Shown piece by piece: positions 25,811-45,034 of a DNA stretch of 64,000 bases (within the stretch, counting starts at the first letter, position 1; each line of letters opens with the position of its first letter). The stretch covers positions 2,066,501-2,130,500 of the forward strand of contig NZ_CP014870.1 in the NCBI RefSeq assembly GCF_001661075.1. The letters run 5' to 3'. Below the pieces are notes generated by a model. That model was not told where the DNA came from. It searched no databases and was given only the letters and a program-made list of their open reading frames with translations. This DNA is from Pseudomonas silesiensis. Lineage in GTDB: Bacteria > Pseudomonadota > Gammaproteobacteria > Pseudomonadales > Pseudomonadaceae. The translations under genes and the position numbers were made by a program.

Positions 25811-25966
25811 CTGCCCTCGCTCAGCATGCTGCGAGTCTTTGAAGAAGTCGCACGGCATCGCCGTTTCAGCCAGACGGCGCTGGGTCTTGACGTTACCCAA
25901 GGCGCGGTCAAGTGGCTTACACAATCAATAGACTCTACATGCATAAACAGCCCAGACCCGGGCTAG
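25811..25966 (+). pseudogene. N-terminal remnant of a LysR-family regulator
   Basis: The frame reads LPSLSMLRVFEEVARHRRFS followed by a helix-turn-helix ending VTQGAVKWLTQSID, a GcvA-like LysR DNA-binding start. It stops at 25966 with no effector domain, and its end overlaps the LysE-family gene on the other strand. It is a broken relic. Confidence 0.7.
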
Positions 25967-26598
25967 GAGTGGGAGAACATCAGCTTTACTCCAGCCGCTC
26001 CGAAAACTAGCGCAAGGGTGCCTTCGATCCATCGGCGTGCTCGGCGATATCCCCGAATCATGGGCGCGGTGGAGAAGACGATCGCATAGCCACAGAAGAT
26101 AGTGACGCTAAGCACGGCGCAACCGGCCAGAATAATCCCGACCGTTTTTGGCGAAGCTTGCGGCCCCAAGCCAAGGGTCATGGTAGCGATCCAACCCAGC
26201 AGTGCCTTGGGGTTTGTGAGATGCATAAGCAGGCCGCGCTGATAAAGACTGAAGCCCGACACTTTTGGCGCGGCCGCTATCTCTTTCTCGAGCCGCTCAT
26301 TGGACGTTAGAGCAGAGCGGCCTGCTTTGATGGCAAGGAAGAGCAGGTAAGCACCGCCAACCGTTTTTAAGACACCCAGCGCCTGCGCATACTGTGCCAG
26401 GACGGCTGAGACGCCCGTGGCTGCCATCGATCCCCAGAAAATCGAACCACTGATCACACCTGCCGCTAGCAGGAGCGCAGGCTGCCTGCCTTGGTTCATC
26501 GCGACGCCCATTATTCGCATGTTGCTGGGTCCAGGACTCGCCGCTCCAACAATATAGGCCGTAAATACGAGGAAGAGATGGTGGTAATCAAATGACAT
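25963..26598 (-). CDS. LysE/RhtB-family amino-acid exporter
   Basis: The 211-residue inner-membrane protein has about six spans and the family start VFTAYIVGAASPGPSNMRIM plus LLMHLTNPKALLGWIA. LysE-superfamily exporters release lysine, arginine, homoserine or threonine; the E. coli member ArgO also exports canavanine. It is on the same strand as the XRE-cupin regulator gene and close to a canavanyl-tRNA deacylase-type gene, so export of canavanine, arginine or homoserine as a safety valve is a reasonable inference. Confidence 0.88.
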   Translation of the reverse strand: MSFDYHHLFLVFTAYIVGAASPGPSNMRIMGVAMNQGRQPALLLAAGVISGSIFWGSMAATGVSAVLAQYAQALGVLKTVGGAYLLFLAIKAGRSALTSNERLEKEIAAAPKVSGFSLYQRGLLMHLTNPKALLGWIATMTLGLGPQASPKTVGIILAGCAVLSVTIFCGYAIVFSTAPMIRGYRRARRWIEGTLALVFGAAGVKLMFSHS

Positions 26599-26734
26599 TA
26601 AAAGCCCCTTAACGAAGTTCTATGCCAGTCAGCGGCTCTGTTATCAGGAGCCCTATGACGGGGCGATGATGGCCGACCACAAGAGCCAACCCGGCGGACT
26701 CCTCTGCAAGCTTCAGCGCGATGCTGTCTGAACG

Positions 26735-27352
26735 TTAAATTTCACGCCCGGATTGGTGGATCTCCGTTACAGACATGGTGAATATCAGTTTTGATTTGCC
26801 TTTATTCGAGTAGGCATGAGGTACATCTGTTTTTGCTACGGCTGAGCAACCCGCAGAAATGCTCAGTTCGGTATCTCCTACTATGAAGTGGAGTGTCCCT
26901 TTCTCCACGTGAAATAGCTCAGTTGTGCCGTGAGGGTGCCCTGAGGAGGCAAAAGTTTCGCCGGGAAACATTTCCCAGCGCCAAAGCTCAAGCATGTTCG
27001 GACCACTGGTTCCAGCCAGGAGCCTAGCCGTCCCTCCCATGTTACCTGTCCAGAGTGTGGGAATATCCTTGCTCTCGATGAGGTGGGCAGATGGGGCGTC
27101 GGACACGTTTACGACATCAGCAACTGAAAGGCCCAAAGCAGCAGCGATTTTGCACAGGATCGCGATGCTTGGGTTAGCCGTGCATTTCTCTATCTCGACC
27201 ACCATGCCCTTGCTGACACCGGAGCGACGGGAAAGCTCGTCGAGAGTGATTTTCCGCTTCTTCCGTTCCTGTTTGAGCCTGCGGGAAACTGCCTCGCTAA
27301 CGGTTTGAACGTCGGCCCCTGTGTTGGTCGGTATATTGACTATTTTGGTCAT
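26735..27352 (-). CDS. XRE-family regulator with C-terminal cupin sensor domain
   Basis: The 205-residue protein has an HTH domain (about 22-80: RRLKQERKKRKITLDELSRR, SGVSKGMVVEIEK) and a cupin domain (about 125-195) containing HPHGTTELFHVEKGTLHFIV. This architecture senses small ligands and represses or activates nearby catabolic or export genes. It is divergent from the CtdA-type gene with only 45 bp between the two starts, so it likely regulates both that gene and the LysE exporter. Confidence 0.9.
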   Translation of the reverse strand: MTKIVNIPTNTGADVQTVSEAVSRRLKQERKKRKITLDELSRRSGVSKGMVVEIEKCTANPSIAILCKIAAALGLSVADVVNVSDAPSAHLIESKDIPTLWTGNMGGTARLLAGTSGPNMLELWRWEMFPGETFASSGHPHGTTELFHVEKGTLHFIVGDTELSISAGCSAVAKTDVPHAYSNKGKSKLIFTMSVTEIHQSGREI

Positions 27353-27397
27353 TGATCGCTAGTATGAAGTGAAATTTAGGATTAAAGGGATTCTCTG

Positions 27398-28093
27398 ATG
27401 CTGTCCGTACTGCCGTCAATCGACCAAGACGTAATCAATTTGGCACCTGAGTTCAGAGCGCTCAGCATTGTGGTCGAAGCTGCACCAATAGCCAATCCAG
27501 ATATTGGCAAGGACGCTTTGGCTCGAGCCTGTCAATCAGTCACGGCGGGTGGTGCACTGTGGGCAGACGCTCACCTGACCGCTTGGGCGGATCTCTTCCG
27601 AAAATTCGGTGCCAAGCCGCAGCGCACCCCTTGCTCAGCTGAAGCTCTTCGCAAACGGGTCCTGCGTGACGGCAGTCTGCCGAGTATCGATCCAGTGGTT
27701 GATCTCTATAACGCCATCAGCATTGAATACGCGGTTCCTGTCGGCGGTGAGAACGTCGAAGCCTATGTGGGCTCGCCGCGACTCGCTGTTGCAGATGGAT
27801 CGGAACCTTTCGACACCATGAAAGAAGGTGCTCCAGCCCACGAATATCCTGATGCCGGTGAAGTTGTTTGGCGGGACGATCAAGGGGTGACTTGCCGTCG
27901 TTGGAATTGGCGTCAGGGTGTTAGAACACGGCTCAGTGCAGATGCGAAGCACATGTGGTTCATTCTGGAAAGTCTGCCGGAAATGCCGCTTGAAGCGTTG
28001 ACTGAAGCGGGTGACAAGCTGATCGAAGGTCTGCAACTGATGATGCCAGGTGCCCAGATTGAGAGTGCACTAATCGGCCCTGGCGCCAATTAG
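27398..28093 (+). CDS. ctdA: Standalone B3/4-domain protein, probable canavanyl-tRNA(Arg) deacylase
   Basis: The 231-residue protein is a single B3/B4 domain, the fold used for editing in phenylalanyl-tRNA synthetase beta chains. Visible family words are the central GGENVEAYVGSPRLAVADGSE and the segment CRRWNWRQGVRTRL. A standalone protein of this type, CtdA from Pseudomonas canavaninivorans, is known to remove canavanine wrongly loaded on tRNA-Arg. The present gene sits with a gamma-lyase, homoserine dehydrogenase and Gdx exporter in one region, so the CtdA assignment is well supported by context. Ribosome site AAAGGG precedes the ATG. Confidence 0.85.
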   Translation: MLSVLPSIDQDVINLAPEFRALSIVVEAAPIANPDIGKDALARACQSVTAGGALWADAHLTAWADLFRKFGAKPQRTPCSAEALRKRVLRDGSLPSIDPVVDLYNAISIEYAVPVGGENVEAYVGSPRLAVADGSEPFDTMKEGAPAHEYPDAGEVVWRDDQGVTCRRWNWRQGVRTRLSADAKHMWFILESLPEMPLEALTEAGDKLIEGLQLMMPGAQIESALIGPGAN

Positions 28094-28335: not shown

Positions 28336-29229
28336 ATGTTTACCGGTCTTAGTGCATTTCCTTTGACGCCAATGAATGAGCAGGGTGTGGATGAAGGAGC
28401 ATTTACTCGCCTTGTGGAGCAACTGGTGGCTGCGAAAGTGGATTCTATCGGTGCGCTCGGGTCTACAGGAAGCTATGCGTACCTTTCTCGGATTGAACGT
28501 TCACGAGTTACGCAGTTGGCAGTAGAGGCAGCCGGGAATGTTCCCGTCATGGTAAGCATAGGATCGCTGCGTACACGTGATGTGCTGTTGCTGGCAGAGG
28601 ATGCGCAAAAAGCAGGAGTCAAAGCATTGTTGCTGCCGCCCGTTTCCTATCAGAAGCTATCAGCTGAAGATGTTTTTTCCCTGTACGAAACGGTCACCGC
28701 CAATATCTCCGTCCCGCTATGCGTCTATGACAACCCCGGCACCACCCATTTCGAATTTACTGATGAGCTTCACGGGCGCATTGCCCGCCTGCCGAATGTG
28801 CACTCGATCAAGATCCCTGGCGTTCCCGAAGCACCAGATCAGGCCAGGGCACGAGTCGATCGCCTTCGGGCACTGATTCCGGAGCACGTAACGATCGGGG
28901 TAAGCGGGGATGCATTTGCTGCTACTGGATTGAATGCAGGCTGTGAGGTCTGGTACTCGGTCATTGGGGGCTTGTTCCCAAAAACGGCCCTGGCAATCAC
29001 GCGTGCTGCGTTGTCGGGTAACGCCGAAGAAGCGGCTCGCCTTTCCGAATCTTTGAAGCCTCTATGGGCCCTCTTCACACAATTTGGGGGAAGCTTGCGC
29101 GTTGTTGCAACGGCGGCCGAGCTTCGTGGATTCACCCACTCTCCGAGCTTGCCATTGCCGCTCAGAGCCATAAGTGGATCAGGGCGTCAGCAAATTGCTG
29201 CGGCGATCGACGAGCTCGAATTGAGCTGA
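28336..29229 (+). CDS. DapA/N-acetylneuraminate-lyase family aldolase or lyase
   Basis: The 297-residue TIM-barrel protein has the Schiff-base Lys159 in SIKIPG and the catalytic Tyr131 in YDNPGTT. In true dihydrodipicolinate synthase the same loop reads NxPGRT, and its Arg holds the carboxylate of aspartate semialdehyde; here that Arg is Thr136. So lysine biosynthesis is unlikely and another pyruvate-linked aldol or lyase reaction is more probable. It lies between the B3/4 gene and a PaiB-like gene, a grouping that suggests a shared pathway. The substrate is unknown. Confidence 0.85.
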   Translation: MFTGLSAFPLTPMNEQGVDEGAFTRLVEQLVAAKVDSIGALGSTGSYAYLSRIERSRVTQLAVEAAGNVPVMVSIGSLRTRDVLLLAEDAQKAGVKALLLPPVSYQKLSAEDVFSLYETVTANISVPLCVYDNPGTTHFEFTDELHGRIARLPNVHSIKIPGVPEAPDQARARVDRLRALIPEHVTIGVSGDAFAATGLNAGCEVWYSVIGGLFPKTALAITRAALSGNAEEAARLSESLKPLWALFTQFGGSLRVVATAAELRGFTHSPSLPLPLRAISGSGRQQIAAAIDELELS

Positions 29230-29380: not shown

Positions 29381-30019
29381 ATGTACATCCCCCCTCAGTT
29401 CGAAGAGTCTCGTGTTGGCGTTTTGCAAGAAGTCATTATGCGAAATCCGCTTGGGTCACTTGTCACTTGTTCGGGTGATGGGATTGACGCCAATCACCTC
29501 CCTTTTGAACTTGTACTCCGCAGCGGTGCGCTTGGGGTGCTGCAAGCGCATGTGGCGCGGAATAATCCCCTATGGCATGAAGTCGCCCAGGGCAGCGAGG
29601 TGTTGGTGATATTTCGAGCTCAAGATGCGTATATATCGCCACAATGGTATCCGAGCAAACAGGATTTCCATCAGCAAGTCCCCACTTGGAACTACCGGGT
29701 CGTGCACGCATTTGGTCGTGTGACGTTTCACGATGATGCTCAGTACGTGCGTCGTGTCGTGGCAAAGCTGACCAAGTCTAATGAAGCAACTCAGCCCACA
29801 CCTTGGAAAATGACCGATAGTCCCAAGGAGTACATAGATGCCATGCTGAAAAAAATTGTAGGGGTCGAGATCGAAATCACGAGGCTAGTGGGGAAATTCA
29901 AGCTCGGTCAGGATGAGGAAGCTCGTGATATCCGAGGTGCTGGCGATGCTTTGGTCTCACGTAATGAGCGAGAAATTGGATTAGCCATGCTTGAGTGCGC
30001 TGATAATAAAGACATTTAG
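29381..30019 (+). CDS. FMN-binding PaiB-family protein
   Basis: The 212-residue protein opens with YIPPQFEESRVGVLQEVIMR and contains SPQWYPSK and VPTWNYRVVHAFGRV, the signature run of the PaiB/FMN-binding negative regulator family. The fold is a split-barrel flavin domain like pyridoxamine-phosphate oxidases. Members were first described as repressors but many are likely flavin- or heme-dependent enzymes. It follows the DapA-like gene by 151 bp. In this locus a reductive role on an N-hydroxy compound is conceivable but untested. Confidence 0.88.
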   Translation: MYIPPQFEESRVGVLQEVIMRNPLGSLVTCSGDGIDANHLPFELVLRSGALGVLQAHVARNNPLWHEVAQGSEVLVIFRAQDAYISPQWYPSKQDFHQQVPTWNYRVVHAFGRVTFHDDAQYVRRVVAKLTKSNEATQPTPWKMTDSPKEYIDAMLKKIVGVEIEITRLVGKFKLGQDEEARDIRGAGDALVSRNEREIGLAMLECADNKDI

Positions 30020-30858: not shown

Positions 30859-31239
30859 GGCGTTCTCCTGGATTTCTAATTTTCTGGCTGCCCTGGACCT
30901 TCTGATGCGAATGCGGATAGGGCTCCTTCCCGCAGGGGGATAGCCATGCACGGTCGGACAGATGGGATGGTCACTATATTGACTTTTTTAGTCAATAGTT
31001 GGTAGCTTGAACGGCAAGCGACGAAAGTGGCCATGTGGTAGCTGAGTGATGGGTGATTGGCCTGGCGCGGGCGATGTGCGACCCCTCACCATTTGCGTTT
31101 GCAGATGACGATGATCTCGCTCAACGCTTCAGAAGAAGGCCTCACATTGCATAGGAAAGGCTCACTGCAGCACTGAATTTCAGCAGGGCGCCGCCTTACG
31201 GGTGGAAGGCTCAGAAAAGGCGAGAGGGTGTCTCAAATC
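30859..31239. other. Divergent promoter region before the threonine synthase-like gene
   Basis: About 380 bp between divergent starts. There is an AT-rich segment near 30975-31000 (ATTGACTTTTTTAGTCAATA, a palindrome-like run) that may be an operator or promoter. No gene or known riboswitch was recognised. Confidence 0.4.
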
Positions 31240-32643
31240 ATGAAGTACGTCAGCACACGGACGCCTGGTAAAGAATTCGAGTTCAGCGAGGTCCTCATGG
31301 GGGCGTACGCACCGGATGGTGGGCTTTTCGTTCCTAGCAAGGTCCCTCGCTTCAAAAGCGATGATCTCCTGAAGCTTGAATGGCTACCATTTCACGAACT
31401 GGCACGTCATGTGATCGAGCCGTTCCTTGGTGACTATATCCCTCAAAATGAACTGTCTCGAATTCTTGAGGAGACATTTGACCGCTTTAAAAGTAACGCT
31501 GTTGCGCCGCTCTACCAGACGGCTACCAATGAGTGGGTATTAGAACTATTCCACGGTCCGGCAGGGGTCTATCAAGACTTCGGTCTCCAATTGATGTCTC
31601 GCCTGGTTGAATACTCCTTACTAAAGTCCGGAAAGAAAGCGCTTGTCGTTGGCTGCACTGGTGGAGACACCGGTGCCGCAGCCATCAAAGCCTTCAATGG
31701 CATGGAAAGTGTGACTGTGATTGTTCTGCACCCTTCCAGAGGAATAACAGAGGAACATCGGCGTCGCTTATTAGGCGCTGCCGAAGAAAATGTTGTAAAT
31801 ATTTTGGTTGAGGGTGATTACGCCGATTGTCATCAGTTGTGCGAAAAATTTCACAGAGGCATTAACGAAACAGGTCAACAATTAATATCTTTCAATTCGG
31901 TGAATTGGGTGAGGGTGCTGGCGCATCTGTCCTTCTACTTCTACTCGTCGCTTCAATTAGGTGCGCCTGAAAGAGAGGTTGCATTCAGTGTGCCTACCGG
32001 AAATTTTGGTGCTCTCTATGCAGGCTATATTGCAAGGGAAATGGGGTTGCCCATCAGGCAGCTAATTGTAGCAACGAATACCAACGCGGGTTTACATAAT
32101 TTTCTTCAGTCTAACCTCTATAGGCGTAATGAGATCCGTACTACCAACACGCCTTGCATGAATGTGTCGTTAGCCTCAAATTTCGAGCGGCTGCAATGGA
32201 GTATTCTCAATAGGTGCAGTGATAAAGTGGCTAGAAATATGGAGTTACTAGAGACAGATGGCCAAATTCAACTGGAACAGGACGAGTGGTTGGAGGCGCG
32301 AAAGCTATTTGATTCTTTGGCGGTAGAGGATGCAGAGGCGTTTTCCTGTATTCATGAAGTCTTTGTTAAGAGTGGTTACTTGATCAGTCCTAATACCGCG
32401 ATTGGATTACGAGCTGCGCGAATTAACAGGCGTAGCTTACTGACACCAATGATCTGCTTGGCCACGACGCATCCTTCAAGCTCTGCCTCAGTTCTGGCTG
32501 AAGCCGATGTTAAATCTCCAATGAGTGTGGTGAGTGCTCACCCCTTCTCTAATGTCGAATGCATTTCAATTTCCAATGATGTTGGCATCCTTACGGAACT
32601 CATCAAGGCGATATCCCAAGACACGAAGTCTCGCTCGCTATAA
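31240..32643 (+). CDS. Threonine synthase homologue lacking the PLP lysine
   Basis: The 467-residue protein aligns along its length with class 1 threonine synthases (N-terminus KYVSTRTPGKEFEFSEVLMG, later GCTGGDTGAAAIKAF, SVPTGNFGALYAGYIAREMG and ARKLFDSLAV). In working enzymes the PLP lysine lies in LAFKDFALQ. Here the same place reads GVYQDFGLQ, with Gln112 encoded by CAA at 31573. It therefore cannot form the usual Schiff base and should not make threonine. The ATG at 31240 fits the family start; a GTG at 31228 is possible. It heads a tight operon with Lrp, homoserine dehydrogenase and aldehyde dehydrogenase genes. A binding or regulatory role is inferred. Confidence 0.88.
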   Translation: MKYVSTRTPGKEFEFSEVLMGAYAPDGGLFVPSKVPRFKSDDLLKLEWLPFHELARHVIEPFLGDYIPQNELSRILEETFDRFKSNAVAPLYQTATNEWVLELFHGPAGVYQDFGLQLMSRLVEYSLLKSGKKALVVGCTGGDTGAAAIKAFNGMESVTVIVLHPSRGITEEHRRRLLGAAEENVVNILVEGDYADCHQLCEKFHRGINETGQQLISFNSVNWVRVLAHLSFYFYSSLQLGAPEREVAFSVPTGNFGALYAGYIAREMGLPIRQLIVATNTNAGLHNFLQSNLYRRNEIRTTNTPCMNVSLASNFERLQWSILNRCSDKVARNMELLETDGQIQLEQDEWLEARKLFDSLAVEDAEAFSCIHEVFVKSGYLISPNTAIGLRAARINRRSLLTPMICLATTHPSSSASVLAEADVKSPMSVVSAHPFSNVECISISNDVGILTELIKAISQDTKSRSL

Positions 32644-32657: not shown

Positions 32658-33095
32658 ATGAAACGCGCTTTAGATAAGACGGATGAAAAAATACTGGAAG
32701 AGCTTACTCGTAATGCTCGACTTGCGCATAATGACATTGCCATGAAAGTTAATTTGTCCAGGAATGCTGTCAGGCTCAGGATTGAACGGTTGGAGCGGGA
32801 CGGATATATCCGGGGTTATACCATAATCAAAGGTGCGCCACCTTCCGAGGTTGCGCCAATTAATGCCCTTATTTTTGTGTATCGAAAAGACCGAATGCGC
32901 GGTGCTGAAGTAGTGCGTTCAATTGTCTCAATGCCTGAGATCGTGTCCTGCAATGTGATGAGTGGTGACCTGGATATTGTAGTGACAGTTGAAGCGGCAA
33001 GTTCGGATTGTATTCATCGGGTCTGGAGCGACATATCCACGTTGCCAGGAGTTTTGAATACGGTTACGTCATTTGTATTGTCTTGCACGAAGTAG
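32658..33095 (+). CDS. Lrp/AsnC-family regulator
   Basis: The 145-residue protein has an N-terminal HTH (DKTDEKILEELTRNARLAHN, then MKVNLSRNAVRLRIERLER) and a C-terminal RAM ligand domain. Lrp-type regulators sense amino acids and usually activate a nearby catabolic operon. It lies 14 bp after the threonine synthase-like gene and ahead of homoserine dehydrogenase. A short hairpin (33125-33141) lies between it and the next gene. Confidence 0.92.
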   Translation: MKRALDKTDEKILEELTRNARLAHNDIAMKVNLSRNAVRLRIERLERDGYIRGYTIIKGAPPSEVAPINALIFVYRKDRMRGAEVVRSIVSMPEIVSCNVMSGDLDIVVTVEAASSDCIHRVWSDISTLPGVLNTVTSFVLSCTK

Positions 33096-33226
33096 GTTGC
33101 TAGGAAATCAAAATGCTCTCTCCTGCGAGCATTCTGCTCGCAACAATGATCGGTTTGCCATGTTCGTATGAGCACTGCTGCAGTTTAGTATTTCAGTACC
33201 GAAAACATAACAATGAGGCCCATGTC

Positions 33227-34276
33227 GTGACTGAATATAAAATTGCTTTGCTTGGTTTTGGTGGTGTAAACCGTGCGTTGACGCAGCTCATTGCAGATAA
33301 GAACGAGCACTGGGCTAATGAATTTGGTTTTAAGCTAAAAATTGTTGGTGTCAGTGACCTTTACTTTGGCTCCATTATCAATAAGAACGGGTTGGATGCC
33401 CACGAATTGGCCGCAGTTCCTGCTGTAAAAGGGGGGTTTAGAACATTGCCAGCGGGCAGTGCTGAGCCTGCCAATGAGACGGTTATCCGTTTCTCGGGGG
33501 CCGATCTTATCGCCGAGGCTACGTTCACCAACCCTGTAGACGGAGAGCCAGCTACAACTTTCTGTCGCTGGGCTCTGGAAAAAGGTATCAGTGTGGTCAC
33601 CACCAACAAAGGGCCGGTGGCGTTGCACGCTGAAAGCCTGAAAGCATTGGCCAGAAGCACCGGTGCCCAATTCGAGTTTGAAGGCTCGGTAATGAGCGGC
33701 ACTCCCGTCATTCGTCTGGCTAAAGAGTCGCTGGCCGGCTCGGAAATCAGCGGGTTTAAGGGCATCTTGAATGGTACGTCCAATTTCGTACTTTCCAGCA
33801 TGGAAGAAGGTCTCGACTTCTCTGATGCAGTCGCCAAGGCTCAGGAACTCGGTTACGCAGAAGCTGACCCCACCGCAGATGTGGAAGGGCATGATGTTCG
33901 TCTTAAAGTAGTCATTTTGGCGAATGAGCTTCTGGGAGCGAAGTTGACGCCGAGCGATATCCTTTGCAAAGGCATCTCGGGGATCACGTCAACAGATATC
34001 GCCGAAGCAACGAAGGCCAATGCCCGGTGGAAACTAATTGGCAGCGCGGAAAAAATGAGCAATGGCTCCATCACTGCATCTGTTAGTCCTCAATTGTTGC
34101 CTCAGGGGGACGCACTGGCCGGTGTGAGTGGTGCAACGAATGCAATTACCTTTACTACAAATGTCCTGGGTCCGGTAACGGTTGTCGGAGCGGGTGCAGG
34201 TCGGTTTGAAACAGCATTCGCCTTACTCTCGGATATCGTCAGCATTCACAAGAACAAAACTAAGATAGGCAAATGA
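33227..34276 (+). CDS. Homoserine dehydrogenase without ACT domain
   Basis: The 349-residue enzyme interconverts homoserine and aspartate semialdehyde with NAD(P). It has the nucleotide loop [29 protein letters not shown] and the catalytic segment [16 protein letters not shown]. It ends after the catalytic domain, whereas biosynthetic Pseudomonas forms have an extra ACT domain for threonine feedback. That and the gene context point to a catabolic enzyme working towards aspartate semialdehyde. I take the GTG at 33227 with GAGG upstream; a longer frame from 33113 gives a Cys/His-rich leader not seen in the family. It overlaps the aldehyde dehydrogenase gene by four bases. Confidence 0.9.
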
Positions 34277-35739: not shown

Positions 35740-35771
35740 GGCAAGGCTCTTCTGGTCGATAGAGCCTTGCC
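35740..35771 (+). promoter_or_regulatory. Intercistronic hairpin before the permease gene
   Basis: A perfect 11-bp stem, GGCAAGGCTCT and its complement, with a 10-base loop. No T-tract follows, so it is more likely an mRNA processing or stability element than a terminator. Confidence 0.5.
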
Positions 35772-35796
35772 CAATACAACAATAAAAGGTAACAAA

Positions 35797-37335
35797 ATGA
35801 GTGTGAATGATCTTAATCCCACACGCGTGCCATCGTCTGGTGCAACTCGAAAGAGAGACTTCAGCGCAGAAGATGCGGGCTACCAAAAGGTGCTCAAGCC
35901 TCGCCAGGTTCAGATGATTGCCATAGGGGGGGCAATCGGAAGTGGTCTATTCATGGGCGCAGGCGCACGACTCGCTGAAGCCGGACCCGCGCTTGTGTTT
36001 GTCTATGCAATCTGTGGCTTTTTTGCGTGGTTCATCATTCGGGCTATGGGCGAACTGGTGATGTATCGCCCATCCTCGGGCTCGTTCGTCTCCTATGCTC
36101 GAGAGTTCTACGGTGAGAAATGGGCTTTTGCCGTGGGATGGATGTACTGGACTGACTGGGTAATGGTTGCCATTGCAGATCTCACAGCGACAGCGCTCTA
36201 CCTGAATTTCTTCAAAGCCTATGTCCCTTTCATGGGCGACATTCCTCAATGGTCCTTGGCACTGGGAGCATTGGGTTTTGTTACTGCGATTAACCTTGTC
36301 TCGGTAAAAATTTTTGGTGAACTTGAATTCTGGTTTGCCCTGATCAAGGTGGCTGCATTAACGACCTTCCTTGGGATCGGCATTTACATGGTGTTGTTCG
36401 GCACTCCGCTGCCAGGCTATGAGGTCGGGTTCAAACTGATTTCTGACAATGGCGGTTGGTTCCCATCAGGCCTTTTGCCCGCCGTAATCATGATCCAGGG
36501 GGTGATATTTGCGTATGGCAGTGTGGAGTTGGTTGGTACTGCAGCTGGCGAAGCCCAAGACGTCGCTACAGTCATGCCGAAAGCAATTCGGGCAGTTGTT
36601 TTCCGCATTATTGTTTTTTACGTTGGTTCTGTATTGCTGTTGGCAATGCTGCTCCCCCACACAGCGTACTCGGCGGGGGTAAGCCCGTTTGTGACGTTCT
36701 TCGGCTCGCTGGGGATCAAGGGGGCAGACGCGATTATGAACATGGTCTTGATTACCGCGGCCGTGTCTTCTCTGAACGCTGGCATTTACTCCACTGGCCG
36801 GGTGCTTCGCTCGCTGGCAATCAACGGATCAGCCCCTAGCTTCCTGGCCAAGATGAACCGTCAAGGTGTTCCGTTCGCTGGCATCATGCTGACGACCGTT
36901 GCTTCACTAATTGGTGTCGTACTTAACGCCATTGTTCCGGGTGAAGCCTTTGAAATTGCGCTGACACTCACTGCCGTTATGTTGATCGGTTCGTGGTCAA
37001 CAATCGTCCTGTGTCAGATCAAGCTCTTCAAATACTCCCAACAGGGTGATCTGGAGCGTCCGGGGTTTCGAATGCCGTTTGCGCCTTACAGTGGTTACGC
37101 GACCTTGGTGTTCTTCGGTTTGGTTCTGGTTCTTATCGCATTCGATTATCCCGTAGGTACGTACTCGATTGCTTCGCTGCCGTTTTATGCCGCCGCTCTT
37201 GTTGCTGGTTGGTACATGGTTCGTGGCCGTGTTCGTGCAATTGAGAGTGGTGAATTAGTCTTTGACAAAAATCAAGAATTGGTCCGGGCAGATCAGACCA
37301 ATCATCCTTCTTTCACTCGCCTTCAGAATCAATGA
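35797..37335 (+). CDS. Amino-acid permease (APC superfamily, AAT family)
   Basis: The 512-residue protein has twelve expected spans and the AAT/GABA-permease start QVQMIAIGGAIGSGLFMGAG, followed by ITAAVSSLNAGIYSTGRVL near TM8. Such permeases import basic, aromatic or gamma amino acids by proton symport. The ATG at 35797 has AAAGG upstream. It lies between the aldehyde dehydrogenase and gamma-lyase genes, so uptake of canavanine or homoserine is the natural inference. Confidence 0.92.
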   Translation: MSVNDLNPTRVPSSGATRKRDFSAEDAGYQKVLKPRQVQMIAIGGAIGSGLFMGAGARLAEAGPALVFVYAICGFFAWFIIRAMGELVMYRPSSGSFVSYAREFYGEKWAFAVGWMYWTDWVMVAIADLTATALYLNFFKAYVPFMGDIPQWSLALGALGFVTAINLVSVKIFGELEFWFALIKVAALTTFLGIGIYMVLFGTPLPGYEVGFKLISDNGGWFPSGLLPAVIMIQGVIFAYGSVELVGTAAGEAQDVATVMPKAIRAVVFRIIVFYVGSVLLLAMLLPHTAYSAGVSPFVTFFGSLGIKGADAIMNMVLITAAVSSLNAGIYSTGRVLRSLAINGSAPSFLAKMNRQGVPFAGIMLTTVASLIGVVLNAIVPGEAFEIALTLTAVMLIGSWSTIVLCQIKLFKYSQQGDLERPGFRMPFAPYSGYATLVFFGLVLVLIAFDYPVGTYSIASLPFYAAALVAGWYMVRGRVRAIESGELVFDKNQELVRADQTNHPSFTRLQNQ

Positions 37336-37370
37336 CACCCAACAAAAAAATAACTTTGGAGGAAATAGAC

Positions 37371-38573
37371 ATGCGTCCTGATAAAAAGAATCTGTCCACA
37401 CTTTCGGCGGCTACACTCGCAGTTCATGGTGGTAACGTAACCGACACCACTACCGGTGCTGTTCGCACTCCGCTGGTGATGGCTAACTCTTATCTCTTGC
37501 CTGAAGATCCGGCCACGATGGACTGGTCTAGCCCAGACGGCCTTGTGTACACGCGGAACCAGGGGCATAACCAGGTATGCCTTGAAAAGAAACTTGCTGC
37601 ACTCGAAGGCTGCGAAGCTGCGGTTGTATTTGCTACCGGCGTAGCCGCTCTGCATTCAGTGTTTTTCTCTTTCTTGAAAAGCGGTGACCACGTCATTGTC
37701 AGTGATATTACGTATCAGGCTGTATGGCGTCTTTTCGCGGAGCTTTTGCCTGAGCGTTATGGCATTGAAGCCACATTTGTCGACGTAGGTGACCTAGAGG
37801 CTGTTCGCCAAGCGATCCGCCCTAATACCAAACTGATCCATACTGAGACGATTGCTAATCCAACTACTAAGGTTGCAGATATCGCTGCGCTGGCTGAAAT
37901 TGCCCATGCACACGGGGCACTGATTTCCGTCGATGCTACTTTCACTCCACCTCCGTTTTTCCGTGCCAGTCAGCACGGGGTCGACCTGGTCGTCCACTCT
38001 CTGACGAAGTATATCAATGGCCATGGTGATGCCATGGGCGGGGTGGTTATCGGTTCCACTCAGATGATTACCAAGATCAAGAATGACGCTCTTGTTGACC
38101 TCGGCGCGACCATCTCTCCATTTAACGCCTGGATGATAATGCGCGGTTCAGTCACGCTGCCTCTGCGACTGAAACAACTTCTAAATACGGCTGAAAAATT
38201 GGCTGAGTTTCTCAATTCGGATGATCGTATAGCCTATATCTACTATCCGGGGCTTCCGTCCCACCCGCAGCATGAACTAGCCCGTCGGCAATTTGCAGGC
38301 AAGGGATATGGGGCGATGATGGCTTTTGCAGTAAAGGGCGATCCAGATACTCAGAATCGGTTCGTTTCGAATCTGCGCATCATCACTTCTGCAGTATCCC
38401 TCGGGCACGATGAGTCCCTCATCGTTCATGTGGGTGCGGAAGGCCGAGGCGGCTTTGACAAGTACCCTGAAGAGTTCCGTACCTACGGTCACCTTCGGTT
38501 TTCGGTGGGGCTCGAAGAACCGGACGATTTGATCAAAGATATTTCCCTGGCCTTGGACGAGACATTCAAATGA
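37371..38573 (+). CDS. PLP-dependent gamma-lyase, probable canavanine gamma-lyase
   Basis: The 400-residue enzyme belongs to the Cys/Met metabolism family. PLP ligands are visible: Tyr60 and Arg62 in VYTRNQGH, Tyr115 stacking on the ring, Asp188, and Schiff-base Lys213 in HSLTKYINGHGD. Family members eliminate at the gamma carbon of methionine, cystathionine or analogues. A relative from Pseudomonas canavaninivorans cleaves canavanine to homoserine and hydroxyguanidine. Neighbouring homoserine dehydrogenase, Gdx exporter and CtdA-type genes make that reaction the best call; methionine gamma-lyase is the alternative. GGAGG precedes the ATG. The gene follows the permease by 35 bp and ends near a strong terminator. 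Confidence 0.85.
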   Translation: MRPDKKNLSTLSAATLAVHGGNVTDTTTGAVRTPLVMANSYLLPEDPATMDWSSPDGLVYTRNQGHNQVCLEKKLAALEGCEAAVVFATGVAALHSVFFSFLKSGDHVIVSDITYQAVWRLFAELLPERYGIEATFVDVGDLEAVRQAIRPNTKLIHTETIANPTTKVADIAALAEIAHAHGALISVDATFTPPPFFRASQHGVDLVVHSLTKYINGHGDAMGGVVIGSTQMITKIKNDALVDLGATISPFNAWMIMRGSVTLPLRLKQLLNTAEKLAEFLNSDDRIAYIYYPGLPSHPQHELARRQFAGKGYGAMMAFAVKGDPDTQNRFVSNLRIITSAVSLGHDESLIVHVGAEGRGGFDKYPEEFRTYGHLRFSVGLEEPDDLIKDISLALDETFK

Positions 38574-38782: not shown

Positions 38783-39100
38783 ATGGCTTGGATATGTTTA
38801 ATATTTGCAGGGGTACTTGAAGTTGTTTGGGCTTTCTCCATGAAGCAATCTGAAGGTATGACCAAGCTTGGGCCGACTGTTGTTACCTTGGTAATGCTAA
38901 TGGCAAGTTTTGCTCTCCTGTCATTTTCCATGAAAAGTCTACCGCTTGGTACTGCTTATACAATTTGGACTGGCATTGGTGCTGTTGGCGCGTTTGCAGT
39001 GGGTATCATCTTTCTAGGCGAACCTGCCAGCCTTATGCGAGTTGTCGCAGCTGTCTTAATTGTCAGCGGTCTTGTAATGATGAAGCTGGCTTCAGCTTGA
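38783..39100 (+). CDS. gdx: Small multidrug-resistance family guanidinium exporter (Gdx/SugE type)
   Basis: The 105-residue protein has four transmembrane helices. The central Glu13 lies in AGVLEVVWAFSMK, and the run LPLGTAYTIWTGIGAVGA is the Gdx (SugE) signature rather than EmrE. Gdx proteins export guanidinium with proton antiport as an antiparallel dimer. Here the gene follows the gamma-lyase gene, so the likely cargo is hydroxyguanidine or guanidine produced by canavanine cleavage. No guanidine riboswitch was recognised upstream. Confidence 0.92.
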   Translation: MAWICLIFAGVLEVVWAFSMKQSEGMTKLGPTVVTLVMLMASFALLSFSMKSLPLGTAYTIWTGIGAVGAFAVGIIFLGEPASLMRVVAAVLIVSGLVMMKLASA

Positions 39101-39378: not shown

Positions 39379-40161
39379 ATGATTTCGCTTCGAAAGCTCT
39401 TCGTGTTAGCACTTTTCCCACTTTGCGCGAATGTCGCTCTGGCCAAGGAGTACAAAGAACTGCGTTTTGGCGTTGATGCTTCTTACGCCCCATTCGAGTC
39501 TAAAGCCGCAGATGGTAGTCTGACGGGGTTTGACATCGACCTGGGTAATGCAATCTGTGCCAAATTGAAGGTCAAGTGTACATGGGTCGAGAGCGATTTC
39601 GACGGCACGATTCCTGGCCTGAAGGCCAACAAGTTCGATGGCATTCTCTCTTCCATGACGGTGACCCCAGCCCGCGAGAAAGTCATCGACTTCTCTAATG
39701 AGCTGTTCTCCGGCGCAACCTCTTACGTGTTCAAGAAAAATTCTGGTCTGAGCGTAGAGGTTACTTCCCTTAAGGGCAAGACCGTAGGCTATTTGCAAGG
39801 AAGTATCCAGGAAGCCTATGCCAAAGCGGTTCTGGATAAGGCTGGTGTCAAAACTCAGGCCTATCAGAATCAGGATCAGGTTTATTACGACCTGGTTTCC
39901 GGTCGCCTCGATGCGGCGATCCAGGACATGCTGCAAGCTCAGCTGGGTTTTTTGAATTCCCCCCAAGGCACTGGTTATGAAGTCAGCAAGCCTGTTGACA
40001 GCGAGTTACTGCCAGCCAAAACAGCTATTGGTATATCTAAAGGTAACAAAGACCTCAAGGCCTTTTTGGATAAGGGCATCCAAGCGTTACACGATGACGG
40101 TACCTATGACTTAATCCAGAAAAAACACTTCGGTGATCTGAATCTCTATAGCGGCAAGTAA
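39379..40161 (+). CDS. Arginine/ornithine-type ABC transporter binding protein (AotJ-like)
   Basis: The 260-residue family-3 binding protein starts with a signal peptide ending in VALA, followed by the mature words RFGVDASYAPFESKAADGSL and DLGNAICAKLKVKCTWVESD, close to AotJ/ArgT-type proteins that bind arginine, ornithine or lysine. The ATG at 39379 has TAGGG upstream; an upstream extension of the frame is not protein-like. As canavanine is a close arginine analogue, this is a strong candidate for its periplasmic capture. Confidence 0.92.
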   Translation: MISLRKLFVLALFPLCANVALAKEYKELRFGVDASYAPFESKAADGSLTGFDIDLGNAICAKLKVKCTWVESDFDGTIPGLKANKFDGILSSMTVTPAREKVIDFSNELFSGATSYVFKKNSGLSVEVTSLKGKTVGYLQGSIQEAYAKAVLDKAGVKTQAYQNQDQVYYDLVSGRLDAAIQDMLQAQLGFLNSPQGTGYEVSKPVDSELLPAKTAIGISKGNKDLKAFLDKGIQALHDDGTYDLIQKKHFGDLNLYSGK

Positions 40162-40218: not shown

Positions 40219-40947
40219 ATGTTCGAAATACTGTTGCAGGCCCTCGGGCTCTCCACATACAGCATGAAAGGGTTCGGTCCTCTGTTGCTGGAGGGCGCCT
40301 GGATGACCGTCAAGTTGTCAATACTCTCGCTGCTGTTGAGCGTGCTGCTTGGTCTTATCGGGGCCAGTGCCAAACTTTCCAGTGTCAAACTCCTGCGAAT
40401 CCCGGCACAGCTCTACACAACCCTGATTCGCGGGGTGCCGGACCTCGTGCTGATGCTACTGATCTTTTACAGCCTGCAAACCTGGTTGACCGGGATTACG
40501 CAAGCACTGGATTGGGAATACATAGAGATCAATCCGTTTGTTGCCGGGATCATCACGCTGGGGTTTATCTACGGTGCCTACTTCACTGAGACCTTTCGCG
40601 GGGCGATGCTAGCTGTGCCCCGTGGACAGGTGGAAGCGGCCACCGCCTATGGCTTAAGTCGCACTCAGCGCTTTCGCTTTGTGGTCTTCCCGCAAATGAT
40701 GCGTTTTGCTTTACCGGGTATTGGTAACAACTGGATGGTCATCCTCAAAGCCACTGCACTGGTTTCGATCATAGGCCTTGCTGACTTGGTAAAGGCAGCC
40801 CAGGACGCTGGTAAAAGCACCTATCAATTGTTCTATTTTCTGGTCTTGGCAGCGCTTATTTATTTGGTGATTACCAGTACTTCAAACTATGTCTTGCGTT
40901 GGTTGGAACGGCGTTATGCGGCAGGTTCCCGGGAGGCTGTACGATGA
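40219..40947 (+). CDS. Arginine-type ABC transporter permease (HisQ/AotQ-like)
   Basis: The 242-residue membrane protein has a hydrophobic core and the EAA loop GQVEAATAYGLSRTQRFRFV. LLLEGAWMTVKLSILSLLLS near the N-terminus is the usual family opening. It overlaps the second permease by four bases (ATGA), implying coupled translation. It forms the channel with the next gene product. Confidence 0.93.
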   Translation: MFEILLQALGLSTYSMKGFGPLLLEGAWMTVKLSILSLLLSVLLGLIGASAKLSSVKLLRIPAQLYTTLIRGVPDLVLMLLIFYSLQTWLTGITQALDWEYIEINPFVAGIITLGFIYGAYFTETFRGAMLAVPRGQVEAATAYGLSRTQRFRFVVFPQMMRFALPGIGNNWMVILKATALVSIIGLADLVKAAQDAGKSTYQLFYFLVLAALIYLVITSTSNYVLRWLERRYAAGSREAVR

Positions 40948-41654
40948 TCGAACTCTTGCAGGATTACTGGAAACCTTTTCTCTATAGCGACGGCCACCAG
41001 ATCACGGGGCTGGCCATGACCTTGTGGTTACTCAGTGCCTCAATCTTCATCGGCTTTTTGGTGTCGGTCCCGTTGTCCATTGCCCGGGTTTCATCCAAGT
41101 GTTACCTGCGCTGGCCCGTACAGTTCTACACCTACCTGTTTCGGGGAACGCCGCTCTATATCCAGTTGCTGATTTGCTACACCGGGATCTACAGCCTGGC
41201 TGCAGTTCGTGCACAACCGGTGCTCGATGCATTTTTTCGCGACGCGATGAACTGCACCATCCTTGCGTTTGCGCTGAACACCTGCGCTTACACCACGGAG
41301 ATTTTCGCCGGAGCAATTCGCAACATGGCCCATGGCGAAGTCGAAGCTGCGAAGGCCTATGGCCTGACGGGGTGGAAGCTCTATGCCTACGTGATCATGC
41401 CATCGGCGCTACGTCGCTCGTTGCCGTACTACAGCAACGAAGTAATTCTGATGCTGCATTCGACCACCGTGGCCTTCACTGCAACCGTCCCGGACATTCT
41501 GAAAGTTGCTCGCGACGCCAACTCGGCGACCTTTCTGACCTTTCATTCGTTCGGTATTACTGCGCTGATTTACCTGATGGTTACCTTCGCGCTTGTCGGA
41601 CTATTCCGCATCGCCGAGCGCCGTTGGCTGGCTTTCCTTGGTCCGGCTCATTAG
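40944..41654 (+). CDS. Arginine-type ABC transporter permease (HisM/AotM-like)
   Basis: The 236-residue partner permease contains the family word VQFYTYLFRGTPLYIQLLI and the EAA loop GEVEAAKAYGLTGWKLYAYV. I take the ATG at 40944, within the stop of the previous gene, rather than the earlier in-frame start at 40899. About 100 bp follow before the ATPase gene. Confidence 0.93.
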   Translation: MIELLQDYWKPFLYSDGHQITGLAMTLWLLSASIFIGFLVSVPLSIARVSSKCYLRWPVQFYTYLFRGTPLYIQLLICYTGIYSLAAVRAQPVLDAFFRDAMNCTILAFALNTCAYTTEIFAGAIRNMAHGEVEAAKAYGLTGWKLYAYVIMPSALRRSLPYYSNEVILMLHSTTVAFTATVPDILKVARDANSATFLTFHSFGITALIYLMVTFALVGLFRIAERRWLAFLGPAH

Positions 41655-41757
41655 GGCTTGGTACTCCATATGGCCGCTCATTAGGCCTCGGGCTTTGTCG
41701 CCGGCTGTCACAGCTGCACAGCGACGCCACATTTTCCCTTAGAGGATGATTGCGCAC

Positions 41758-42519
41758 ATGTACAAATTGACTGTTGAAGAACTGCACAAGAGTTACGGTA
41801 ACCACGAAGTACTCAAGGGCGTATCTCTGAAAGCCAAAACCGGTGATGTGATCAGTTTGATCGGCGCCAGTGGGTCAGGCAAAAGTACCTTCCTGCGCTG
41901 CATCAACTTTCTCGAAACACCCAATGACGGAGCCATGAGCCTGGACGGCAAGCAGATTCGCATGGTCAAGAACCATCATGGCATGCAGGTGGCCGATGCC
42001 GCTGAGTTGCAAAGGCTGCGCACCCGTCTAGCCATGGTCTTCCAGCACTTCAATCTGTGGGGCCACATGACCGTTCTGGAAAACATCACGATGGCCCCGC
42101 GCCGGGTGCTGGGTGTCAGCAAAAAAGATGCCGAAGATCGTGCCCGACGTTATCTGGACAAGGTGGGGCTGCCAGCGCGTGTTGCGGAGCAGTTTCCAGC
42201 ATTTCTCTCTGGCGGTCAGCAACAGCGAGTGGCGATTGCACGAGCATTAGCGATGGAGCCGGAAGTTCTGCTGTTCGACGAACCGACGTCGGCGCTGGAT
42301 CCGGAACTGGTGGGCGAAGTACTAAAGGTGATTCAGGGCCTGGCCGAAGAAGGCCGGACCATGATCATGGTGACCCACGAAATGAGCTTTGCCCGCAAGG
42401 TGTCGAGCCAGTTACTGTTTCTGCATCAAGGCCGAGTCGAGGAGCAGGGTGGGGCAGAGATTCTGGATAATCCGCACAGCGAGCGCCTTCAACAATTTCT
42501 GTCTAATGGACTGAAGTGA
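41758..42519 (+). CDS. Arginine-type ABC transporter ATP-binding protein (AotP/HisP-like)
   Basis: The 253-residue ATPase has Walker A GASGSGKST, signature LSGGQQQR, Walker [15 protein letters not shown] and the switch VTHEMSFA. MYKLTVEELHKSYGNHEVLK matches the usual family N-terminus, so I use the ATG at 41758 rather than 41746. It closes the importer operon; an Lrp gene follows 12 bp later. Confidence 0.93.
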   Translation: MYKLTVEELHKSYGNHEVLKGVSLKAKTGDVISLIGASGSGKSTFLRCINFLETPNDGAMSLDGKQIRMVKNHHGMQVADAAELQRLRTRLAMVFQHFNLWGHMTVLENITMAPRRVLGVSKKDAEDRARRYLDKVGLPARVAEQFPAFLSGGQQQRVAIARALAMEPEVLLFDEPTSALDPELVGEVLKVIQGLAEEGRTMIMVTHEMSFARKVSSQLLFLHQGRVEEQGGAEILDNPHSERLQQFLSNGLK

Positions 42520-42531
42520 ATAGAGTCAACA

Positions 42532-43029
42532 ATGAAAAGGAAGGAAAAAAATCCCGATTTTTCACGAACATTGGGGCGTATTGATGAGGCTATCATTGAC
42601 GTATTACGCCATGACGGGCGCATCACGTACCAGAAACTGGCAACACTTGTGCACCTGACCGCAAGCCCTTGCCAGGAACGTGTACGCAAGTTGGAGAGGC
42701 TAGGGGTGATTCGCGGTTATGGTGCGTTCATCGATGTGCAAAAGGTCTCACCGGGATTGTCACTACAGGTATTGGTCGCTATATCGAGCCAGAATCGGCG
42801 CACTGCACAAAAAGCCTTCGAAGCATGTGTAGATAGCTGTTCTCAGGTCTTGGAATGCCATCTTATCAGTGGTCCGTTCGACTACAGCCTGCGTATGCAC
42901 TGTACAGATATGAAGCACTATCGTGCGCTTACGGAAGTTTGGTTGGAGAATGAGGACCTGTGTATCGACAAACTGGTTGCCTACCCTGAATTGGCTGTTG
43001 TTAAACATTCGTCCACACACCACGACTAG
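42532..43029 (+). CDS. Lrp/AsnC-family regulator
   Basis: The 165-residue protein has an HTH (RIDEAIIDVLRHDGRITYQK, then LVHLTASPCQERVRKLER) and a RAM domain. It lies directly after the importer operon and is the second Lrp regulator of the region. It differs clearly from the one at 32658, so the two may sense different amino acids, for example canavanine and homoserine. That split is speculation. Confidence 0.9.
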   Translation: MKRKEKNPDFSRTLGRIDEAIIDVLRHDGRITYQKLATLVHLTASPCQERVRKLERLGVIRGYGAFIDVQKVSPGLSLQVLVAISSQNRRTAQKAFEACVDSCSQVLECHLISGPFDYSLRMHCTDMKHYRALTEVWLENEDLCIDKLVAYPELAVVKHSSTHHD

Positions 43030-43144
43030 TGGTGTAGGTTAAATGATACGGGCTACGCATGAGATGAGCTGGCGCAGGTCTTAAAGGCCTGCGGTTGGAG
43101 TTAAATAATAAAAGCAGAAATTTTTAATCTCGGGTAAATTTCCA

Positions 43145-45034
43145 ATGACTGTCCACTTAAGGTTCAGCCACAAAGTTCTGCTCGCCGCATCGCTCGTAGT
43201 CATTGCAGCATTCTCATTATTCACACTGTACAACGATTATTTTCAGCGCGACGCTATACGTACAAACCTCGAAAGCCACCTTGAGGGGATGAGCAAAATT
43301 GCTGCAAGCAATGTGCAGGCTTGGCTGTCTGGACGTGTTCTGCTGATAGACACCATCGCTCAGACTGTTGCCAGCGACAATACGCCGGACAGTGTGGTGC
43401 GCCTACTGGAACAGAAGACGCTGCTTTCAACATTTAACTTCACCTATCTTGGGGGTATCGACGGCAGCTTTGCGATGCGACCAAAAGACGAATTGCCCGC
43501 CGATTATGACCCGCGTACACGGCCTTGGTACAAGGATGCGATGGCCGCTGGTGGTACGACTTTGACTGAGCCGTACCTGGATGCATCCACTGGCCAGTTG
43601 ATGATGACCATCGCTACTCCGGTTAACCATGGAAACCAACCTCTCGGTGTGGTCGGTGGTGACCTGACCTTGGATACCCTGGCGAAAATTGTCAGTTCGC
43701 TCGATCTGGGCGGCATCGGTTATGCCTTCCTGGTCAGTGCCGACGGCAAGATACTTGCTCACCCGGATAAAGACTTGGTGATGAAAAATCTTATCGATAT
43801 CTATCCGCAAGACACACCCGCTATCAGCACCCATTTCAGTGAGACCGGGCAGGCGGGTGTTCCTTATATTCTGATGTTCTCGCCGGTCAAGGGGCTGCCC
43901 TCGGTCAACTGGTATATCGGTTTGTCCATCGACAAGAAAAAAGCCTACCAGGCGTTAGGCGATTTCCGCGTTTCAGCTATTTTCGCCACTCTGATTGCCG
44001 TGCTAATCACGTTGCTTCTACTGGGCATGCTAATCCGCGTACTGATGCAACCTCTGAGGTTAATGGGTAAAGCCATGCGCGATATAGTCCAGGGGGAGGG
44101 GGACCTGACCCGACGTTTGGCCGTGCATTCTCAAGATGAGTTTGGAGAATTGGCCTGCGACTTCAACCTTTTCGTGGAGCGAATCCAACATTCAATACGC
44201 GAAGTCTCATCAGCGACCGAACAAGTCAACGAAGTGGCAAAGCGAGTGATGCTTGCCTCCAGCTCATCCATAGCAAACTCCGACGAACAGGCCAATCGCA
44301 CCAACAGCATTGCAGCGGCGATCAACGAGCTGGGTGCAGCCGCTCAGGAAATCGCGTGTAATGCCGGTGATGCCTCACTTCAGGCGTCAGATGCACGCCT
44401 TCAGGCTGAGGGTGGCCGGCAAGTGGTAGCTCAGACGATCAACGCCATGAACGAGTTGTCAGGAAAAATTCGTGCATCTTGCAGCAACATAGAGACGCTG
44501 AATGGTAAGACGGTGAGCATTGGTCGGATCCTTGAAGTGATCAAGGGCATTTCCGAACAGACCAACCTACTAGCGCTCAACGCCGCTATCGAGGCTGCGC
44601 GGGCGGGCGAGGCAGGTCGCGGTTTCGCTGTGGTGGCGGATGAAGTACGCAGTCTTGCCTACCGCACTCAGACATCGGCACAAGAAATTCATACGATGAT
44701 TGAGGAGCTTCAGGTCGGCGCTCGTGAGGCGGTTTGCACTATGAGCGAAAGCGAGCGCTATAGCCATGAAGGTGTGGTTATCGCCAACCAGGCTGGCGAG
44801 CGACTAGGGAGCGTTACTCAGCGTATTGGCGAAATTGATGGCATAAATCAGTCTGTAGCCACTGCTACTGAAGAGCAGACCGCTGTAATCGACTCGCTGA
44901 ATATGGACATCACCGAGATCAAATCCCTCAACCAAGAAGGCGTGGAGAATCTCCAGGCCACCTTGCTCGCCTGTGATGACCTTGAGCAACAAGCCAGCCG
45001 ACTCAAGCATCTGGTGGATAGCTTCCGTACTTAA
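43145..45034 (+). CDS. Methyl-accepting chemotaxis protein with amino-acid-binding dCache domain
   Basis: The 629-residue chemoreceptor has an N-terminal membrane helix (about 11-30), a periplasmic dCache domain, a second helix (about 277-300), a HAMP domain and the cytoplasmic signalling hairpin with [19 protein letters not shown]. The dCache part carries the amino-acid-binding set Tyr121, Arg126, Trp128, Tyr129, Tyr144 and Asp173, the same pattern and numbering as PctA-type receptors of Pseudomonas. It should detect free L-amino acids in the periplasm. Its place beside the arginine-type importer suggests taxis towards arginine-like compounds such as canavanine. Confidence 0.92.

Follow-up and report, generated by a model that had tools for sequence, protein, structure and literature searches.

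What unites the genes lying at about 25.9-45.0 kb of a stretch of the Pseudomonas silesiensis chromosome (the window: 64,000 nucleotides, 2066501-2130500 of a genome that consists of one 6.82 Mb contig)? Their order is LysE (minus strand), XRE-cupin (minus), ctdA, DapA-like, FMN-binding, DinB-like (minus), threonine-synthase-like, Lrp, homoserine dehydrogenase, aldehyde dehydrogenase, APC permease, lyase, Gdx, aotJQMP-like, second Lrp and receptor. A first-pass annotation had interpreted them as a locus for the use of, and defence against, canavanine. Our analysis indicates that this is very probably what they are, a locus of the P. canavaninivorans kind that would be built as two units under one regulator. 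The earlier reading proved largely right, the roles in import, export and sensing being still presumptive. Every gene it had named is an open reading frame where it was placed, of the family given to it (Pfam or profile matches). Its gene list was incomplete, the XRE-cupin, DapA-like, FMN-binding, DinB-like, threonine-synthase-like and amino-acid permease genes having been overlooked, and it had missed the regulation (the XRE-cupin regulator and its operator) and a threonine-synthase homologue that lacks its catalytic lysine.

The identity of the locus is carried by two proteins. The product of ctdA (27398..28093, plus strand), encoded at canavanine degradation genes, is a standalone B3/4 domain (PF03483 alone). 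It aligns over 229 aa with PDB 9f7e, the solved 'CtdA Canavanyl tRNA Deacylase', at 83% identity. On this similarity it is identified as the canavanyl-tRNA-Arg deacylase CtdA, as had been proposed. The second protein, the predicted canavanine gamma-lyase (37332..38573, plus strand; start probably about 37371; its nearest relatives in the databases have 400 aa), belongs to the Cys/Met pyridoxal 5'-phosphate (PLP) enzymes (PF01053). It is 73% identical over 397 aa (661 bits) to P0097 of Rhizobium leguminosarum bv. trifolii, which is assigned to the canavanine lyases by its incomplete UniRef name alone, beginning 'Canav'. Its SLTKYINGHGD motif aligns with SVTKYINGHGD of methionine gamma-lyase, in both of which the lysine is presumably the one that holds PLP. 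These similarities support the production of homoserine and hydroxyguanidine from canavanine by the lyase. According to the accessible part of PMC10018355, both P. canavaninivorans and R. leguminosarum carry ctdA immediately in front of their canavanine operon, its deletion impairs growth on canavanine, and the published degradation route runs through homoserine. The central claim of the earlier reading is thus right, and the core of the system is already published for these two species.

In a survey of 398 Pseudomonas genomes, that of P. silesiensis included, some match to CtdA was found in 47, and in 35 of these it reached at least 67% identity over nearly the whole protein, as counted from the match listing. 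The lyase (E <= 1e-100) was present in 18 genomes, all of them among the 35 with ctdA (hypergeometric p about 7e-22, relatedness of the genomes being ignored), and 17 genomes carry ctdA without the lyase. The neighbourhoods of 80 lyase loci were then compared; each spans at most about 21 kb (10 kb flanks) and many are ended by contig ends, so that the counts are lower bounds, and they rest on simple identity cut-offs with groups set from record titles. A ctdA gene was found at 12/12 P. fluorescens-type, 4/4 P. putida-type, 17/22 Rhizobiales and 9/21 actinobacterial loci, and at none of the single Paraburkholderia, seven Firmicutes and 13 other, mostly distant, loci. The Gdx gene follows a similar pattern (12/12, 4/4, 11/22 and 7/21 in the first four groups, 0 elsewhere). 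The neighbourhood is thus shared across Pseudomonas, most Rhizobiales and some actinobacterial lyase loci, and because it recurs in these named relatives, with the lyase always paired with ctdA in Pseudomonas, it is on this evidence more than chance. One P. putida-type locus (L015) comes from a record titled Pantoea sp. Ap-967; the same gene order occurs in G134, counted in the genus Pseudomonas.

A regulator for the locus is suggested by the XRE-cupin gene (26735..27352, minus strand; HTH_3 and Cupin_2 domains), which is divergent from ctdA and adjoins it in Pseudomonas, Rhizobiales and Actinobacteria. A side-by-side listing of the intergenic regions between the two genes yielded a predicted operator, the 19-bp palindromic element TATATTGACTnnnTnRGTC. 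Operator 1, TATATTGACTATTTTGGTC (27332..27350, plus strand), ends 47 bp upstream of the ctdA start codon and overlaps the first annotated codons of the XRE-cupin gene, the start of which is therefore uncertain. Operator 2, TATATTGACTTTTTTAGTC (30975..30993, plus strand), overlaps the palindrome ATTGACTTTTTTAGTCAAT and lies upstream of the threonine-synthase homologue. From this homologue through the lyase the intergenic gaps are 69 bp or less, or the genes overlap, and the series therefore looks like one catabolic operon. Both sites contain TTGACT, a -35-like box, with TAGTAT or TAGCTT beyond an 18-bp spacer. A protein bound there would cover the promoter, and the XRE-cupin protein is therefore read as the likely repressor at both predicted operators.

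The element is rare and is concentrated at these genes. A search of the window allowing up to three mismatches found only the two sites against 0.32 expected, and two or more sites arose in 3/100 shuffles. The pattern TATTGACTNNNTNRGTC has two exact matches in the whole genome, the two window sites; with at most one mismatch there are 12 (one being the reverse reading of the palindrome) compared to two for a reversed-pattern control. In the 398 genomes together, exact matches to the 19-bp pattern number 32, spread over 26 genomes, and those to the reversed control one. Of the 32, 24 lie directly before ctdA and seven before the catabolic operon; the last, in G168, a genome without a ctdA match, was set aside as unrelated because, among 24 window proteins compared, the only likeness nearby was a 26% partial lyase-family match. 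With at most one mismatch, the operator precedes ctdA in 12/12 P. fluorescens-type and 4/4 P. putida-type loci, the threonine-synthase homologue in all of the former but L010 and L012 (10/12), and, in 4/4 of the latter, the Lrp gene that begins a rearranged operon. The regulator and its site also travel together where the lyase is lacking. In 19 lyase-less ctdA regions (17 genomes plus two extra copies in the lyase-bearing G165), operator and XRE-cupin gene are both present in 11 and both absent in eight (Fisher p 1.3e-5); searches of these eight for XRE-cupin relatives gave chance-level matches only, even at E up to 5. The two extra copies of G165 (L162, L163) differ from each other, one having regulator and operator and the other being partial with neither.

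Further lyase copies were seen outside this arrangement. G134 has a second canavanine-lyase copy (L144) without ctdA, accompanied by LysE, DapA-like (67%), homoserine dehydrogenase, aldehyde dehydrogenase and permease genes, and an operator-like site with two mismatches lies near its LysE gene. In Rhizobiales, L026, L033 and L041 are second lyase loci at which ctdA was not found; they hold a LysR gene (55-61% to the LysR at 46836 of the window) and another importer.

The first gene of the catabolic operon (31228..32643, plus strand) encodes a threonine-synthase-like protein with Gln at residue 116, the position at which solved threonine synthases carry the lysine of the FKD motif. In threonine synthase this lysine holds PLP as a Schiff base, and the homologue is for that reason not classed as a threonine synthase. 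Among the matches listed, the closest 22 database relatives have Gln in 20, His in one and lack the region in one (Lys in 0/21 readable), whereas the next 98 all have Lys (98/98). The protein forms its own clade in a tree (support 100/100, 11 of 24 rows), which carries a long-branch warning, its three clades being well supported and their order not. An open frame of 453-471 aa with 72-97% identity is maintained in 12/12 named P. fluorescens-type loci. The ratio of non-synonymous to synonymous substitution (dN/dS) is 0.06-0.14 in 5/7 comparisons, similar to neighbour genes; the estimate rests on the closer pairs because dS is saturated in the other two, the more distant. The gene is under purifying selection. 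A predicted model (predicted local distance difference test 80, predicted template-modelling score 0.86) has the threonine synthase fold, with template-modelling (TM) scores of 0.87/0.88 to 4f4f; residues 110-114, beside Gln116, are of low confidence and the pocket was consequently not read from the model. Directly behind the homologue, at the same small gap in 12/12 P. fluorescens-type loci, is an Lrp/AsnC regulator gene (32658..33095, plus strand). The P. putida-type loci have another homologue, with the lysine kept and the GNFG loop lost, adjoined by Lrp in 3/4. In the tree it groups with a homologue from a second operon of the P. silesiensis genome (L106 6435-14673; G000 about 5.94 Mb). 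This second operon encodes a gamma-lyase-family enzyme, APC permease, LysR, the threonine-synthase homologue, Lrp, homoserine dehydrogenase (66% identical to that of the window) and aldehyde dehydrogenase.

Homoserine released by the lyase would be consumed by two enzymes of the same operon. The catabolic homoserine dehydrogenase (33113..34276, plus strand; true start probably about 33227) lacks an ACT domain, as had been said of it, and the aldehyde dehydrogenase (34273..35697, plus strand) is presumed, on a profile match and its context, to convert aspartate semialdehyde to aspartate. The two genes lie side by side in many Rhizobiales and some actinobacterial loci. The proposal that nitrogen is recovered as aspartate can hold for only one of the four nitrogens of canavanine; the other three would leave as hydroxyguanidine. 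The protein likely to carry this product out is a small multidrug resistance (SMR) exporter (38783..39100, plus strand) which has all five residues of the tested Gdx set, E13, W16, S42, Y59 and W62 (set taken from PMC7695847, as far as its accessible text goes). Secretion of hydroxyguanidine by P. canavaninivorans is reported in the accessible part of PMC11018352, and the Gdx-type protein is presumed to export it. Its best solved matches are 8vxu and the 6wk5/6wk8 set; these we take to be Gdx-Clo. The second exporter gene (LysE/Rht type, Pfam LysE; 25963..26598, minus strand) is a candidate for export of canavanine or a product. Relatives of 62-98% identity are found repeatedly at the canavanine loci of both Pseudomonas and Rhizobiales. 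Since they also stand beside ctdA in two lyase-less genomes, a role as canavanine exporter suits it better than export of lyase products. The last gene encodes a PctA-like chemoreceptor (43145..45034, plus strand) whose dCache_1 domain aligns over the PctA ligand domain, and which may steer cells towards amino-acid sources. Of the three roles that the first-pass annotation had assigned, import and the type of exporter have gained support at the level of residues, the ligand of the receptor none.

For uptake, the locus encodes an AotJ-like binding protein (39379..40161, open reading frame listed from 39223), an AotQ-like permease (40219..40947), an AotM-like permease (40899..41654, the listed start, the true one being probably later) and an AotP-like ATPase (41746..42519), all on the plus strand. 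AotJ, Q and M occur in 12/12 and AotP in 11/12 P. fluorescens-type loci; the importer is absent as a set from P. putida-type loci. The four subunits are 83-90% identical to another such set in the genome, here taken as the canonical AotJQMP arginine/ornithine importer. The binding proteins differ at the position of Leu117 of the LAO protein, a residue we assume to touch the ligand. Canonical-type AotJ (at least 80% identity to the other AotJ of the genome; 59 genomes searched, exact duplicates dropped) has Glu there in 44/44 rows. In the locus proteins its place is taken by Leu or Phe in 19/19 rows, including 12/12 named P. fluorescens-type loci, two of the rows being the window itself and two coming from one other genome; the window AotJ has Leu and so falls outside the canonical type. 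Two AotJ paralogues of 62% identity (L210, L211) have Met, indicating that the Glu marks the canonical type and not the whole family. P. aeruginosa AotJ (PA0888) is reported, from calorimetry, not to bind L-canavanine (PMC6829864, accessible part), and the guanidinium pKa is given as about 7 for canavanine compared to 13.8 for arginine (PMC10018355, accessible part). A pocket that had lost a negative charge would suit the less basic side chain of canavanine, and the Aot-like importer may well take in canavanine.

Each of these assignments has a competitor. The lyase could be an ordinary methionine gamma-lyase or an O-acylhomoserine enzyme, and the cluster one for sulfur amino-acid or homoserine turnover. 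It does belong to the Cys/Met PLP superfamily, and many databases name its relatives methionine gamma-lyase; yet its top match among solved methionine gamma-lyases reaches only 274 bits, far below the 661 bits of P0097. The cysteine of the YGC motif, a catalytic residue of methionine gamma-lyase, is replaced in 58/63 distinct translated lyase stretches (at least 60% identity, some from overlapping loci), where the position reads YQA, YEA or YDA; the remaining five were not read by the motif. With the constant pairing of lyase and ctdA in Pseudomonas, this makes the alternative highly improbable. A methionine gamma-lyase identity was ruled out on similarity, the nearest relatives being lyases of canavanine loci and not proven methionine gamma-lyases. 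More room is left for the view that the importer is a second arginine/ornithine transporter unrelated to canavanine, as might be expected from its AotJ, which in the part that aligns shares 83-84% identity with the genome's other AotJ. The consistent exchange of the pocket Glu speaks against it, as does the presence in 17/22 Rhizobiales lyase loci of an ATP-binding cassette (ABC) importer with another gene order and a distant binding protein (28-35% AotJ identity); we consider it a less probable option, though a real one. Slightly less probable still is that the inducer of the XRE-cupin regulator is hydroxyguanidine or guanidine, both of which have been proposed as canavanine indicators via riboswitches (PMC10018355, accessible part). 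Both regulator and operator have been retained next to ctdA by 10 genomes that yielded no lyase, where hydroxyguanidine could not be made by this enzyme; an eleventh region of the kind, L162, belongs to a genome that has the lyase. Their persistence there makes canavanine the simplest inducer and suggests that it is the signal.

The threonine-synthase homologue may be judged in the same way. That it is a working enzyme, making threonine or 2-oxobutyrate from a homoserine derivative, is favoured by the preserved fold, by the GNFG loop kept in most of its relatives, by purifying selection, and by a score of 172, just above the thrC equivalog cut-off of 167.1. The loss of the Schiff-base lysine throughout its readable relatives, against its retention in all of the next ones listed, argues otherwise, as does a separate canonical thrC beside a homoserine dehydrogenase in the same genome, and catalysis is improbable. 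The loss of an essential catalytic residue might equally mark a pseudogene on its way out, an idea for which the open frame in all 12 named P. fluorescens-type loci and the low dN/dS leave hardly any room. The protein of the Gln clade is instead a probable pseudoenzyme that would bind a ligand, probably in concert with Lrp. It retains some of the PLP site, and canaline forms oximes with carbonyls. A fuller proposal, offered tentatively, is that it is the non-catalytic partner of the adjacent Lrp in canavanine operons. Its ligand may be homoserine, or an adduct of PLP with homoserine or canaline, and it would thereby report on or buffer a toxic pathway; the second clade, which degenerated separately (lysine kept, GNFG lost), would play the same part in the P. 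putida-type loci and in the second homoserine-dehydrogenase operon.

Several results weigh against the locus being one coordinated canavanine system. Parts of it are inconstant in the P. fluorescens-type loci, the receptor being found in 6/12, the second Lrp in 7/12, the permease in 3/12 and LysE in 6/12 (lower bounds), and homoserine dehydrogenase is missing from L010 and L012, the loci whose ctdA is nearest to 9f7e. In the window search the operator was not found before gdx, aotJ, the receptor or lysE. The match between operator and regulator is confounded by lineage: seven of the eight regions without them hold the more distant ctdA type (66-71%), the eighth has ctdA in part only, and no more than 824 bp precede ctdA in L148. 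Control by a guanidine riboswitch was also considered, and Rfam at gathering score gave only a tRNA in the window. The aldehyde dehydrogenase falls below every curated cut-off among the matches listed (25 of 45 families), and its substrate therefore rests on context.

The remaining genes are as follows. A DapA-like aldolase family protein (28336..29229, plus strand; Pfam DHDPS, nearest solved relative 2r8w) occurs in 10/12 P. fluorescens-type loci, and a distant relative (cut-off 25% identity) in 15/22 Rhizobiales loci. Around its Arg138 it appears not to carry the residues typical of true DapA, and it is possibly an aldolase acting near aspartate semialdehyde. An FMN_bind_2 protein (29381..30019, plus strand) is loosely linked (2/12 P. 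fluorescens-type loci), and a DinB-like protein (Pfam DinB; 30376 to about 30951, minus strand) is found in 10/12 P. fluorescens-type and 4/4 P. putida-type loci. The APC amino-acid permease (35767..37335, plus strand), seen in at least 3/12 of the former, is present in 4/4 of the latter, and the second Lrp-type regulator lies at 42532..43029 (plus strand). Adjoining the locus at 45394-46611 is an M20 amidohydrolase gene, also present in the close relatives L003 and L007, whose product possibly releases acylated amino acids.

Likeness to the P. canavaninivorans locus was judged through L010 and L012, stand-ins whose CtdA proteins are nearest to the solved one (97.8% and 96.5%). The window shares ctdA, the canavanine gamma-lyase and the homoserine route with the published operon of P. 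canavaninivorans and R. leguminosarum (Hauth et al. 2022, 2023; PMC10018355, accessible part), and L010 and L012 have in common with it the XRE-cupin, threonine-synthase homologue, Lrp, aldehyde dehydrogenase, lyase, Gdx and Aot-like importer genes. The arrangement differs. In L010 and L012 the homologue is 28-32 bp behind ctdA and only the ctdA operator was found, whereas in the window ctdA and the catabolic operon are about 3 kb apart, each with its own operator; the homoserine dehydrogenase, DapA-like, DinB-like and receptor genes are extra in the window. The Gdx-type protein shares its five residues with the Gdx-Clo guanidinium exporters, but its gene is linked to a canavanine lyase, with no guanidine riboswitch in the window, and the subunits of the importer resemble AotJQMP except for the pocket exchange. 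The homologue retains the whole fold and many invariant residues of ThrC and differs in having no Schiff-base lysine. Canavanine export as a rhizosphere defence is known from MsiA of Mesorhizobium (PMC3333776, accessible part), to which the window is likened by published function alone. In the open literature searched (titles and abstract beginnings, a cupin regulator and a pseudoenzyme each being the target of a single search, and the 2022 canavanine-lyase paper lying outside it), we found no description of the operator, of an XRE-cupin canavanine regulator or of a lysine-less threonine synthase.

Taken together, the genes would work as follows. The Aot-like importer with its altered pocket would bring in canavanine, which would release the XRE-cupin protein from the palindromic sites over the -35-like boxes of ctdA and the catabolic operon. 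CtdA would proofread canavanyl-tRNA-Arg, the lyase would split canavanine into homoserine and hydroxyguanidine, and the two dehydrogenases would take homoserine through aspartate semialdehyde to aspartate. Gdx and LysE would export hydroxyguanidine and surplus canavanine, the receptor would direct cells to amino-acid sources, and the threonine-synthase homologue would most likely be non-catalytic, a ligand-binding partner or a regulator.

A soil Pseudomonas thus very probably carries the genes to eat, and to survive, a poisonous plant amino acid. The core of the system is already known. What is added, and open to test, is the logic of the regulon, the altered pocket and the probable pseudoenzyme; the apparently dead threonine-making enzyme and the matching pair of switch sites look new. 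A published pair of enzymes becomes a testable regulon of one regulator, one operator and two promoters with canavanine as the predicted signal, and the loss of the pocket Glu provides a residue-level hypothesis for how canavanine may be told from arginine at uptake. A conserved, probable pseudo-threonine-synthase is exposed among proteins that databases label threonine synthase. Strains that carry ctdA only, often with the regulator, may be equipped for defence alone, and would be set apart from those that also eat canavanine.

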